A DNA stretch of 64,000 nt from Pseudomonas sp. SL4(2022). Its GTDB lineage: Bacteria; Pseudomonadota; Gammaproteobacteria; Pseudomonadales; Pseudomonadaceae. Within the stretch, counting starts at the first letter, position 1; each line of letters begins with the position of its first letter. The stretch spans positions 1,804,001-1,868,000 of the forward strand of contig NZ_CP113060.1 of assembly GCF_026625725.1 (NCBI RefSeq), written 5' to 3'. The translations under genes and the position numbers were made by a program. The notes beneath the pieces are model-generated. The model was given only the letters and a program-made list of their open reading frames with translations, was not told the origin of the DNA and did not search any database. Shown piece by piece: positions 10,293-15,085 of the stretch.

Positions 10293-10409
10293 CCGACAAC
10301 TGAAAGCAACGAAGACGAAACCCAGGAGTCGGTCTGGCACTGGGTGCGCGCCGGCTGGCTGGAAAGCCACGAATTTTTCACGATCGACAATACGGCCCTG
10401 CGGCGTTAA
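10293..10409 (+). pseudogene. Decayed C-terminal fragment of an SMI1/KNR4-like protein
   Basis: After a stop at 10290-10292, the frame reads NEDETQESVWHWVRAGWLES and then an extra tail ending LRR-stop at 10407-10409. The first part nearly matches the C-terminus of the SMI1/KNR4 gene at 14675-15085 (NEDETWESVWHWVRDVWLES). Nothing upstream encodes the rest of such a protein. This is a remnant of a paralogue or an old duplication. Confidence 0.7.
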
Positions 10410-10424: not shown

Positions 10425-10910
10425 CAGTCGCTTCAAGGCAGATAAATCCGAAGGCGATGTACTTGTCGTCCCAAACAGCTTTTTAAGGGGCATTAAAGAG
10501 CGGTAACGGGTGGATTACGCGATGCTCGAAATACGTGATTCCCCGCCAGAATCACCCTCAGCGCCGCTAACCACCCTATAAAAGGTTTCTGCAGCGGGTA
10601 GCTGGGGCATAGCCAATCCGAAACACTCCTCCCCCCAGCAGAGCACCATGCGCCGGTTCGAGATGGCCATGCACAGCATTGCGTTGATGCCGTTTGGCGA
10701 TGCGCCCGGCACAGCACAGGCTCATACCGGTGTTACCGGTACTGTGCTTGAGGTGGGGTACTGCGCTGCCTGCAAGTAATTTTTGGGCTGTCTGCTGCAC
10801 GTACAGGGCTGATGTTTTGGTTTGGCTGTTCAGCGTTGGTTCAGTAATACCGGTTTAGGCTGTTCGTCCATTCCGATAGCCACGCCACCATAGCGTGATG
10901 AGTACAGACA
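10425..10910. other. Non-coding gap, nothing convincing seen
   Basis: Short open frames exist on both strands, for example 43 codons at 10648-10779 and about 65 codons on the minus strand, but none has a recognisable domain, a good ribosome-binding site or neighbour support. There are no repeats of the families seen elsewhere. The last part probably holds the promoter of the repeat-containing lipoprotein gene. Confidence 0.5.
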
Positions 10911-11711
10911 ATGAACAGAGCTATTTTGCTTGGCTGCACGCTGGGCTTACTCAGTGGCTGCGCAGAGTTGCAGCAAATACACAACGAGCAAGTGGCGCGC
11001 GATTGCCAAGCAGGCTTTGCCCACCAGCGCGGCCTGCGTGATAGTGCCATGGGCACAGCGCAGGACAGCAACTGGTTCAACGCCTTCTGCCCTGTTCAGC
11101 AGCGCACTGTCGCCGTGCAGAGCTATCTGCAAGGCTACCAAGCGGGACTGGCCGGGCGTAAACCTGCTCCGCCGCCACGGCCACAGGTGCAGCCACCGCA
11201 AGTGCTGCGACCACAAGTCACGCCGCCAGGAGCCATAGTTGTGCCGGATTACAACGAAATTGCCGGGCGTGTAGTCACGCCGCCAGGAGCCATAGTTGTG
11301 CCGGATTACAACGAAATTGCCGGGCGTGTAGTCACGCCGCCAGGAGCCATAGTTGTGCCGGATTACAACGAAATTGCCGGGCGTGTAGTCACGCCGCCAG
11401 GAGCCATAGTTGTGCCGGATTACAACGAAATTGCCGAGCGTGTAGTCACGCCGCCAGGAGCCATAGTTGTGCCGGATTACAACGAAATTGCCGGGCGTGT
11501 AATCACGCCGCCAGAACCGGGCATAGTTGTGCCGGATTACAATGAAATTGCCGGGCAGGTCATTGCCCCGCCGGAGCAGCCGCAGGTGGTGCCGGAGGCA
11601 GAGTGGCCGTCGCCAACCCTTGAATCGGCGCAGCCTCTATTACTGCCAGAGCCTCAGGTGCTTCTCGAGCAGCCAGAAACGCTGGCTGTAGAGGTAGATG
11701 ACTGGAGTTGA
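10911..11711 (+). CDS. Lipoprotein with six tandem 19-20-residue repeats
   Basis: 266 residues with a lipoprotein signal (LLGCTLGLLSGC, lipidated Cys17). A domain of about 70 residues with two Cys (DCQAGFAHQRGLRDSAMG and FCPVQQRTVAVQSYLQGYQAGLAGR) resembles the DUF2799-type lipoprotein core. A Pro-rich hinge follows, then five near-identical copies of VTPPGAIVVPDYNEIAGRV and a sixth diverged 20-residue copy. The acidic, Pro/Glu-rich tail has no membrane segment. The repeats look like an extended periplasmic or surface stalk, possibly variable in number between strains. Function unknown. Confidence 0.8.
   Translation: MNRAILLGCTLGLLSGCAELQQIHNEQVARDCQAGFAHQRGLRDSAMGTAQDSNWFNAFCPVQQRTVAVQSYLQGYQAGLAGRKPAPPPRPQVQPPQVLRPQVTPPGAIVVPDYNEIAGRVVTPPGAIVVPDYNEIAGRVVTPPGAIVVPDYNEIAGRVVTPPGAIVVPDYNEIAERVVTPPGAIVVPDYNEIAGRVITPPEPGIVVPDYNEIAGQVIAPPEQPQVVPEAEWPSPTLESAQPLLLPEPQVLLEQPETLAVEVDDWS
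11217..11561 (+). repeat. Six tandem 57-base in-frame repeats
   Basis: Units start at 11217, 11274, 11331, 11388, 11445 and 11502. Copies 1, 2, 3 and 5 are identical at base level. Copy 4 has one G-to-A change (Gly to Glu). Copy 6 is 60 bases long and diverged. This identity points to recent expansion by slippage or recombination. Confidence 0.95.
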
Positions 11712-11879: not shown

Positions 11880-13481
11880 ATGCTGGATTACGGCAGTAAA
11901 CGCATTCTGATCGTCGATGATTTTTCCGACTTCCGCAGCTCGCTGAAATCCATGCTGCGTGACATGGGCGCGCGTGATGTGGACACCGCCGACCGTGGCG
12001 AAGAAGCCCTGAGCATGTGCCGTAACAAGCGCTACGACATCATCCTGCACGACTACAACCTGGGCGGCGGCAAGAATGGCCAACAGGTGCTGGAGGAGTT
12101 GATCGCGGGCAGGCTGATCAGCCATCAGTGCATCTTTGTCATGGTCACTGCCGAAAGCAGTCAAGCTATGGTGCTCAGTGCCCTTGAGCACGAACCGGAT
12201 GCTTACCTGACCAAGCCATTCAACCGTGCCAGCCTCGATCAGCGGCTGGATAAGCTGGCTGAGCGTAAGACAGCACTCAAAGGCATTCTCCAGGGGCTCG
12301 ATAAGCAGGACCCCTCCGCTGTTCTGGAGGCCTGCAAGGTCCTCAGTCAACAGGACAAGCGTTACCTGCCACTATGCCAGCGCTACCACGCCACCGCTCT
12401 GCGTGAATTGGGCCGGTTGGACGAACTGGAGCAGCTGCTCAATGGCGTCTTGGCCGAGCGGCCTTTGCCTTGGGCGCAGGTGGCAATGGCCAGTCTGGCG
12501 CACAAGCGCGGCGATTTGGCGCGCGCACAGAGTCTCTACGAACAGGGGCTCAAACTGTTTCCGATGATGCCATCGCTGTATGACGGCCTGGCCGCTGTTC
12601 TGCAGGCTCAGGGTGACAGTCTGCGTGCCCAGCAAGTCCTGGAGGATGCGGTCAAGCTGGCGCCGCTGGCGATTCGACGGCAGATGCAACTGGGCAAGCT
12701 GGCCCTTGATAACCAGGACTTTGGTAGCGCCGGCAAGGCCTATCGCCAGGCCATGGAGCAGGGCCGCACCTCCAAGTTCAAAAGCCCGGAAAACTACCTG
12801 GGGCTGGCCCAGGCGATCACTGCACAGGCTGGCGATGGCACACTCGACAAACGCCTGCAGATTGAGGTCAACCAAGCCCTCGGCGAGCTGGACAGAAATT
12901 ATGCTGGCGACCCCAATGTGCAGCTGCGCTCGCGCCTGGCCATGGCCAGTAGCCTGATGAAATCCGGTGAGCCCAAGAAGGCCGCGCAACTGGCTGCCGA
13001 GGCTGCTGCTGCACTGGCCCGTTTGCCGCAATTGTTTGCCGCCGATGCCGCCCTCAGTGTTGCCAGTCAGTTGCGCGCCCTGGGTCAGGGCGAGGCGAGT
13101 GACACGCTGCTGAAAACCTGTGTTGAAGCCTACGGCGACGACCCGCAGGTGATGCAGGGGGTGGCGAGGCAAACCGATAACAGCGACATTCTTTCGGGTG
13201 GTAAGGAGGCGGTCGAACTTAACCGGCAAGGTGTGCGTTGCTACCAGCAGAAGCAGTATGACGAAGCGCTGCGACTGTTCCGCCAGGCGTTTGCCCTGCA
13301 GCCCAAAAATCTCAGTATTGCCCTCAACACTGCGCAGTCATTGTTGCAGTTAGGCGCGCAGAACCTGTCGGCCGAGTTGCTGGCCGAATGTCGGCACTGC
13401 CTGGCAATAGCCAGCCAAATGCCCACCACGGATCCTCGCCATGCCCGTTATCTGCAACTGCAACAGCGGGTAGCCGGCTGA
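11880..13481 (+). CDS. Response regulator with TPR output domain
   Basis: 533 residues. An N-terminal receiver domain (1-125) has the acidic pair Asp13/Asp14, phospho-acceptor Asp58 in HDYNLG, the Thr switch in MVTAES and Lys in YLTKPF. The rest, about 400 residues, is helical with TPR-like repeats (for example LARAQSLYEQGLKLFPMMPSLYDGLA and YDEALRLFRQAFALQPKNLSIALNTA). There is no DNA-binding or enzymatic domain, so output should be a protein-protein interaction. The stop overlaps the start of a histidine kinase gene (ATGA), so the two form a cognate coupled pair. Confidence 0.9.
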   Translation: MLDYGSKRILIVDDFSDFRSSLKSMLRDMGARDVDTADRGEEALSMCRNKRYDIILHDYNLGGGKNGQQVLEELIAGRLISHQCIFVMVTAESSQAMVLSALEHEPDAYLTKPFNRASLDQRLDKLAERKTALKGILQGLDKQDPSAVLEACKVLSQQDKRYLPLCQRYHATALRELGRLDELEQLLNGVLAERPLPWAQVAMASLAHKRGDLARAQSLYEQGLKLFPMMPSLYDGLAAVLQAQGDSLRAQQVLEDAVKLAPLAIRRQMQLGKLALDNQDFGSAGKAYRQAMEQGRTSKFKSPENYLGLAQAITAQAGDGTLDKRLQIEVNQALGELDRNYAGDPNVQLRSRLAMASSLMKSGEPKKAAQLAAEAAAALARLPQLFAADAALSVASQLRALGQGEASDTLLKTCVEAYGDDPQVMQGVARQTDNSDILSGGKEAVELNRQGVRCYQQKQYDEALRLFRQAFALQPKNLSIALNTAQSLLQLGAQNLSAELLAECRHCLAIASQMPTTDPRHARYLQLQQRVAG

Positions 13482-14173
13482 TGAGTGATGAGCCTGGGGC
13501 GCTGGATTTTTCCTTGGTGATTGCCTCAACCGTGCATGACATGAAGAACTCCCTGGCCATGCTGACCCGTGCCCACGCGCAGTGGCAGGCGCAGTTGCCT
13601 GCCGAACAGCAGACCGTTGCCGAGCAAGGGGTGATCGATTACGAGTTTGCCCGTCTCAACGGCATGCTGGTGCAGTTGCTCGGCCTGTATAAGCTCGGCG
13701 TCAACCAGCTGCCGATGCGCCCCGGTTATCACGAAGTCGACGATTTTCTTCAGGCCCAGTTGGCACGGCATTTCGAGGTGCTGCAAAGCCGGCAGATCAG
13801 CGCACGTTGCGAGGTCGAGAGCTTCGACTTGATGGGTTTCTTTGATCAGGAACTGCTTGGCTCAGTGGTCGCCAACATCATCACCAACTCCATCCGCTAC
13901 GCCCACAGTGCCCTGTTGATCAGTGCCTGGGAGGAGAACGGGCAGCTGGTACTGGCGATCTGCGACGATGGCCAGGGCTACCCCGAGGAAATGCTCGTCC
14001 AGCAGTCCAACTACGTCCTTGGTCTCAGGCACAGTACTGGCAGCACCGGCCTGGGCCTCTATTTCGCAGGTCGGATTGCCGAACTGCACGAGCGCAATGG
14101 CCTACGCGGGCATATCGAACTGGCCAACGGCGCGCCGCTGGGCGGCGGAGTATTCCGGATCTATCTGCCCTGA
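13481..14173 (+). CDS. Soluble histidine kinase lacking a sensor domain
   Basis: 230 residues. The H-box is at the very start (STVHDMKNSLAML, His19), followed by a helical region and a complete ATPase domain: N-box NIITNSIRYA, G1 DDGQGYP and G2 TGSTGLGLYFAGRIAELH. No signal peptide, membrane segment or PAS/GAF domain is present, so the input must come from a partner or the cytoplasm. The start codon overlaps the stop of the response regulator-TPR gene in an ATGA junction, and the same frame extends upstream only inside that gene. It most likely phosphorylates Asp58 of that protein. Confidence 0.88.
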   Translation: MSDEPGALDFSLVIASTVHDMKNSLAMLTRAHAQWQAQLPAEQQTVAEQGVIDYEFARLNGMLVQLLGLYKLGVNQLPMRPGYHEVDDFLQAQLARHFEVLQSRQISARCEVESFDLMGFFDQELLGSVVANIITNSIRYAHSALLISAWEENGQLVLAICDDGQGYPEEMLVQQSNYVLGLRHSTGSTGLGLYFAGRIAELHERNGLRGHIELANGAPLGGGVFRIYLP

Positions 14174-14674: not shown

Positions 14675-15085
14675 TCAGCTCTCCAGCCAAACATCGCGTA
14701 CCCAGTGCCAGACCGATTCCCAGGTTTCGTCTTCGTTGATTTCCTCGGTTTCGGCTTCCCACAGCAGCACGGTGCCGTCTTCTTCGACCACGTAGTAATT
14801 GCCATGGTCTTCGCACAGCGGCACGTACTCGCGTGGCACGCCGAGTGACCAGGCGGTGGCGGCGACTTCCGGCAGGTAGGTGTGCGATTGCGGATCGCTG
14901 GCGGTGACGGGCTCCAGGCGGCCGTAGACCACATCGCTGACCTGCAGCAGGTATTCACGCAGGCCAAAGGGCAGGTGGATCAGGATTTGCTCCTGAATCT
15001 CCACTAAGGTTTCTTCATCGGGGAGTTCCAGCGGGACGGGCACCGGCTCGTTGAGTTCGCGCAACTGTTCGATGACTTCTTCCAC
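14675..15085 (-). CDS. SMI1/KNR4 (SUKH)-family protein
   Basis: 136 residues, acidic. It shows the SMI1/KNR4 pattern: an N-terminal helix, PFGLREYLLQVSDVVYG, and a strand pair at about residues 90-110 (PLCEDHGNYYVVEEDGTVLLWE) ending in SVWHWVRDVWLES. SUKH proteins often act as immunity proteins against toxins, but many stand-alone copies exist and no toxin gene is visible here. A fragment of a paralogue's C-terminus survives at 10293-10409. About 200 bases of non-coding DNA upstream hold the likely promoter. Confidence 0.78.
   Translation of the reverse strand: MEEVIEQLRELNEPVPVPLELPDEETLVEIQEQILIHLPFGLREYLLQVSDVVYGRLEPVTASDPQSHTYLPEVAATAWSLGVPREYVPLCEDHGNYYVVEEDGTVLLWEAETEEINEDETWESVWHWVRDVWLES

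Follow-up and report, generated by a model that had tools for sequence, protein, structure and literature searches.

What does a two-component system do when its kinase has no sensor and its response regulator has no classical output domain? The question is raised by two adjacent genes of Pseudomonas sp. SL4(2022), found in a 64,000-nucleotide stretch of its genome (the window). The regulator gene (11880..13481, + strand) encodes 533 amino acids and the kinase gene (13481..14173, + strand) encodes 230; both open reading frames lie where the initial annotation of this DNA had placed them. A longer kinase ORF starting at 13388 was considered and is disfavoured by the lengths of the homologues (median 232 aa). 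The two genes share a single base in a TGATG stop-start sequence (13479..13483, + strand); the annotated overlap is thus present, although it is not the ATGA type originally described. The pair occurs in single copy in the source genome (4.44 Mb, one contig). A 99.8% identical protein is found in Pseudomonas sp. HMWF032 and a 90% identical one in P. anguilliseptica. A promoter and terminator scan found no promoter-like sites, and terminators at about the level expected by chance.

In the regulator, residues 9-123 match the Pfam Response_reg accession (E 1.6e-20) and the residues beyond them match solely TPR families. In agreement with the initial annotation, Pfam identifies no DNA-binding or enzyme domain, and this domain content upholds the absence of a classical output from the unit. 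The AlphaFold2 model (mean pLDDT 94.2, 43 homologues) consists of a CheY-type receiver (residues 1-130; 11880..12269, + strand) and a TPR superhelix (residues 145-533; 12312..13478, + strand), the latter also delimited by Pfam matches and conservation. The receiver superimposes on CheY with Z of about 20-21 and 1.6-1.7 A over about 128 residues; the remainder matches generic TPR proteins, and neither sequence nor fold searches returned a solved full-length REC-TPR relative. All residues expected of the phosphorylatable receiver superfamily are there: the acidic pair D13/D14, D58 (codon 12051-12053), T90 and K112. The residues at D+2 (N60) and T+2 (E92) are those of CheY, where they go with fast turnover. 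Within the TPR domain, W198, D235 and R267 are kept in 153-154 of 154 kinase-paired homologues and conservation across residues 261-300 equals that of parts of the receiver, indicating that this domain has a specific binding function.

Pfam recognizes only HATPase_c in the kinase (E 2.9e-11), and its HisKA model gives no score. The predicted fold (pLDDT 85) nevertheless contains an antiparallel DHp hairpin (helices 10-38 and 47-73; residues 10-73 at 13508..13699, + strand) followed by an ATPase (CA) domain, delimited by Pfam and conservation (residues 82-230; 13724..14170, + strand), and Foldseek matches the whole chain to the catalytic cores of CpxA and HK853. The phospho-acceptor H19 (codon 13535-13537) lies within the H-box S-T-V-H-D-M-K-N-S-L, so that fold and residues place the protein among the HisKA-type histidine kinases even though the Pfam model does not. 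Both His19 and Asp58 had been numbered correctly in the initial annotation. Among 39 kinase homologues between 11 and 92 residues precede the histidine (median about 20); the term sensorless thus holds for the whole family. The window kinase is a catalytic core only (DHp and ATPase domains), with no space for a membrane segment or sensor. The catalytic residues are almost invariant in paired homologues: H19 is kept in 149/154, N23 and N136 each in 153/154 and D162 in 154/154. The N and G box residues N136, D162, G164, G166 and G192 are kept in 153-154 of 154, and with H19, D/E20 and N23 included the range is 149-154. The HDxxN motif is the one that gives HisKA kinases phosphatase activity, and its presence here makes it likely that the small kinase is a bifunctional kinase/phosphatase. 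In one Marinomonas locus (L147, 11610-13004) the adjacent kinase has lost its phospho-acceptor histidine (SVKDMRNSL), and behind it, in convergent orientation, lies another small kinase that has the sequence HESKN; a split between a pseudokinase and a kinase is possible there.

The two genes are closely associated across genomes. By a search that is independent of ORF starts, a small kinase of this family adjoins the regulator on the same strand at 154 of 185 distinct regulator loci, 144 times downstream and 10 times upstream; 25 of the remaining loci have no adjacent kinase and the other 6 are truncated by the end of a contig. That the genes stay adjacent in either order speaks for a functional unit. 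In 148 genomes of the family, both genes are found in 38, the regulator alone in 1 (G130), the kinase alone in 1 (a fragmented assembly) and neither in 108 (Fisher p about 5e-33, uncorrected for kinship). Among the 144 downstream junctions, no single type is as frequent as the ATGA overlap of 4 bases (45); 18 are GTGA and 6 are one-base overlaps. Regulator and kinase distances correlate at 0.66-0.74, and those of the two halves of the regulator at 0.74. Covariation was computed from about 102 effective pairs: the expected interface of REC alpha1 with DHp is not enriched, and pairs of TPR and DHp columns make up 7 of the top 20 signals against a 24% background, a signal not separated from phylogeny.

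The phosphorylation chemistry is tied to this pairing. The receiver quintet (D/E13, D/E14, D58, S/T90 and K112) is intact in all 153 readable kinase-paired receivers, and of the 8 decayed receivers 6 have no paired kinase and 2 lie at contig edges. With the edge loci left out, the difference between unpaired and paired receivers has a Fisher p of about 4e-6, uncorrected for kinship and with non-independent lineages. Five of the eight decayed receivers belong to one family, f153 (L188-L192), whose kinase-less REC-TPR proteins carry pseudo-receivers that have lost the second acidic residue; in four of these five D58 is replaced by Glu, a state that resembles a natural phospho-mimic. The initial annotation had proposed that orthologues of the regulator acting without the kinase gene would speak against it, and this is partly what we see, since 25 of 179 assessable loci have no adjacent kinase and 19 of these 25 orphan regulators have intact receiver residues. 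In the six orphan-regulator genomes followed in detail a small kinase was found elsewhere in every case, adjoining a complete second regulator in L201, L203, L204 and L205, beside a regulator cut by a contig end in L200, and beside one split over two frames in L202. Cellvibrionaceae-type regulators without a neighbouring kinase were accordingly rejected as true exceptions, the kinase being located elsewhere in those genomes. Five genomes (G130, G435, G551, G448 and G563) have a regulator but only generic kinase scores, with no recognisable small kinase. Overall, adjacency in either order, near-perfect co-occurrence and invariant phosphorylation chemistry bear out the claim that regulator and kinase form one signalling unit. 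We consider it very probable that they are a cognate pair, and phosphotransfer from His19 to Asp58 within the pair is strongly indicated.

At E <= 1e-40 the regulator is found in 10 of 19 genomes of the genus and 39 of 148 of the family, the kinase being present in the same number of family genomes. At E 1e-30 the regulator is found in 70 of 194 genomes of the order, and at E 1e-25 in 34 of 274 genomes of the class. A profile search matched 42 of 398 genomes in a sample of the phylum, all of them, among the matches listed, within the class. Scanning one genome per species yielded at least 434 confirmed relatives among 587 candidate stretches. Eighty of these include Marinobacter, Marinomonas, Hahella, Cellvibrionaceae, Kangiellaceae, Methylococcaceae, Gallionella and Nitrosomonas; a few metagenome-assembled genomes that carry the label Nitrospirae or Syntrophaceae are also among them and may reflect gene transfer or errors of binning. 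Conservation of the pair across hundreds of aquatic bacteria excludes a chance association of neighbours. No description of the kinase-paired family was found in the open-access papers searched, a search outside which most subscription journals lie.

The genes flanking the pair do not belong to the unit. The initial annotation had included a lipoprotein and a membrane gene, but these are lineage-specific and are absent or eroded in close relatives. In four of these relatives (L095, L096, L098 and L099) a GntR gene immediately precedes the regulator, whereas in the window about 1.6 kb has been inserted between the two. The insert contains a lipoprotein-like gene (10911-11711) and inverted remnants of the 3' ends of the kinase and SUKH genes. 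The lipoprotein-like gene carries a 57-bp in-frame repeat present 5.9 times (VVTPPGAIVVPDYNEIAGR, 11216-11556); P. anguilliseptica and other close relatives gave no match to it, and a match of 84% in the near-identical strain L094 points to differences in the repeat. These decayed remnants correspond to the last 24 SUKH codons (10296-10367, + strand; 79% identical) and the last 49 kinase codons (10603-10752, - strand; 64%), the latter shared by L094, and were left behind by an inverted duplication or recombination. Of the downstream membrane gene, L094 has a full-length copy and L095 a diverged one; L096 and L097 each have a fragment, and no copy was detected in L098 and L099. A recent insertion on one side and a non-conserved gene on the other make the flanks irrelevant to the unit. 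Several close Pseudomonas retain, beside the pair, the SUKH_5 (SMI1/KNR4) gene that lies at 14675-15085 (- strand) in the window, where the 3' end of this gene overlaps a same-strand ORF of a poorly conserved membrane protein. Candidates for a conserved third gene were rejected: besides the kinase there is none, and recurrent neighbours reflect lineage synteny.

More distant loci have other neighbours. In Marinobacter the pair follows a gene for an NahK/ErcS-type hybrid kinase, which in L058, L063 and L064 overlaps the regulator by 4 bases, and in L165 a hybrid kinase gene comes after the pair; such neighbours are found at a minority of loci. In L197 (3297-8808) the pair directly follows genes for a type II/IV secretion ATPase, a platform protein, a prepilin peptidase and coaE, a cluster of the pilB-pilC-pilD-coaE type. 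The REC-TPR protein of that lineage is shortened (403 aa) and its C-terminal TPRs are missing. The hybrid-kinase neighbours fit an output directed at kinases; the pilB/C/D-type neighbours do not.

The closest known relative of the regulator, which the initial annotation missed, is VieB of Vibrio cholerae. The link comes through locus L193 (family f217), where Pfam matches identify a hybrid kinase, a REC-EAL-LuxR and a REC-TPR gene in the order of vieSAB; L194 has the same order by gene sizes, and L195, also of f217, has a REC-EAL neighbour. These domains are the ones reported for VieSAB of V. cholerae (PMC4352251). The comparison protein, the L193 REC-TPR from this vieSAB-like operon and not V. 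cholerae VieB itself, is 31% identical to the window regulator over residues 1-300 (BLASTP, E 3e-35) and aligns with its profile at 1.3e-43 over 312 columns (hhalign, window residues 1-314). Nothing in the VieB-type protein aligns with the C-terminal TPRs (about 315-533), and in the family tree, built by a quick method only, the vieSAB-linked proteins lie on long outer branches. The regulator has REC followed by TPR and is homologous in sequence to proteins from vieSAB-like operons, but it is not encoded in an operon with VieS and VieA: the neighbours differ, and the window genome has EAL-domain matches only and no VieA orthologue. This rules out a vieSAB system there and makes the regulator VieB-like but not an orthologue of VieB. 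VieB is reported to bind VieS, a hybrid kinase, and to inhibit both autophosphorylation and phosphotransfer of this kinase non-competitively, an action weakened by D62E; VieS phosphorylated VieB poorly (PMC4352251), so that the kinase acting on VieB was left unclear. The earlier appeal to unnamed protein partners is too weak in this light, since inhibition of a hybrid sensor kinase by the closest characterised relative gives the window regulator a specific, testable role. The observation itself stands, more firmly than it had been put, and its interpretation is partly supported, with VieB to be added and the flanking genes dropped.

We propose, tentatively and with somewhat less than an even chance of being right, that the small kinase controls the phosphorylation state of a VieB-type adaptor, which binds and probably restrains other signalling proteins, most likely hybrid kinases. 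The sensorless bifunctional kinase, its input probably arriving through a protein contact, would phosphorylate and dephosphorylate Asp58, and the state of Asp58 would alter how the TPR superhelix docks on further signalling proteins. The homology to VieB makes catalytic cores of other sensor kinases, probably hybrid ones, the likeliest targets; the adaptor would restrain and release their autophosphorylation and phosphotransfer. Read from sequence, the architecture, pairing, catalytic residues and VieB-type homology define a soluble two-component unit; kinase control as its output, and the direction of that control, are suggested more weakly. Of the possible outputs, action on other kinases in the manner of VieB has the best support, which comes from homology of the N-terminal 60% and from some neighbourhoods. 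Against it stand the VieB operon, which has no private kinase, the end of the homology near residue 314, the minority share of hybrid-kinase neighbours, the missing VieA orthologue, the orphan receivers with intact residues (19 of 25), the REC alpha1-DHp interface that covariation did not bring out and the pilus-assembly genes upstream in L197.

The L197 cluster would better suit a phospho-switched scaffold, whose TPR domain would bring in or let go a structural protein or an enzyme (of pilus, flagellar or envelope machinery, for example) rather than inhibit kinases. TPR superhelices are general protein-binding scaffolds, the fold matches of the regulator are generic, and the TPR proteins RcbA/RcbB act on a c-di-GMP enzyme (PMC12282931). 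This alternative is possible but doubtful, as the pilus neighbourhood is limited to one lineage, the kinase is the only recurrent gene beyond synteny, and the sole characterised homologue, VieB, targets a kinase. It is unlikely that the REC-TPR protein is instead a sensory input arm, its TPR groove binding a protein ligand and the kinase core serving as a hub to another receiver. No member of the kinase family has a sensor of its own and the TPR-DHp covariation would agree with such an arrangement, but the receiver residues, invariant when paired, point to phosphate arriving at the REC-TPR receiver, and a second receiver gene is not conserved nearby. The CheY-like residues at D+2 and T+2 would also fit an ordinary cognate pair whose signal goes no further than phosphate buffering or cross-talk and whose TPR domain serves stability or localisation only; the strict conservation of W198, D235 and R267 and of residues 261-300 makes this very improbable.

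By its regulator the pair is present in about a third of the sampled genomes of the order, and it reaches distant Proteobacteria; VieB is a single studied case in one pathogen. If the proposed adaptor mechanism is correct, VieB is no curiosity but the part so far seen of a common arrangement, with a small kinase adjusting the activity of others, and harmless environmental bacteria offer a setting for its study. A bolder generalization, which we regard as rather doubtful, is that these are widespread dedicated phospho-controlled anti-kinases, the sensorless kinase gating, through Asp phosphorylation, a VieB-type TPR adaptor that couples or insulates other sensor kinases. The pair would then be a two-component system that acts by setting how active other two-component systems are.

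Among known systems, the catalytic cores of CpxA and HK853 share the DHp and ATPase fold with the entire small kinase, which differs in having no transmembrane or sensor part and a variant H-box (HDxKN) that the HisKA model does not reach. The Rap proteins of Bacillus are also TPR proteins that bind two-component systems; unlike the window regulator they are receiver-less and peptide-regulated, target response regulators, and have no cognate kinase route (PMC3035606, PMC3246441). RcbA/RcbB of Vibrio vulnificus likewise form a two-gene unit in which TPR proteins steer signalling by protein contact, modulating a c-di-GMP enzyme at the pole, but there the TPR protein is combined with a GGDEF partner and neither a receiver nor a kinase is involved (PMC12282931). 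VieB is the most similar, with an N-terminal receiver that has the conserved Asp, followed by TPRs and by no DNA-binding or enzyme domain. Its gene lies with those for VieS, the hybrid kinase, and VieA, a REC-EAL-HTH protein, whereas the window regulator has a private 230-aa sensorless kinase, and this dedicated kinase could carry out the phosphorylation that VieS performs poorly on VieB.
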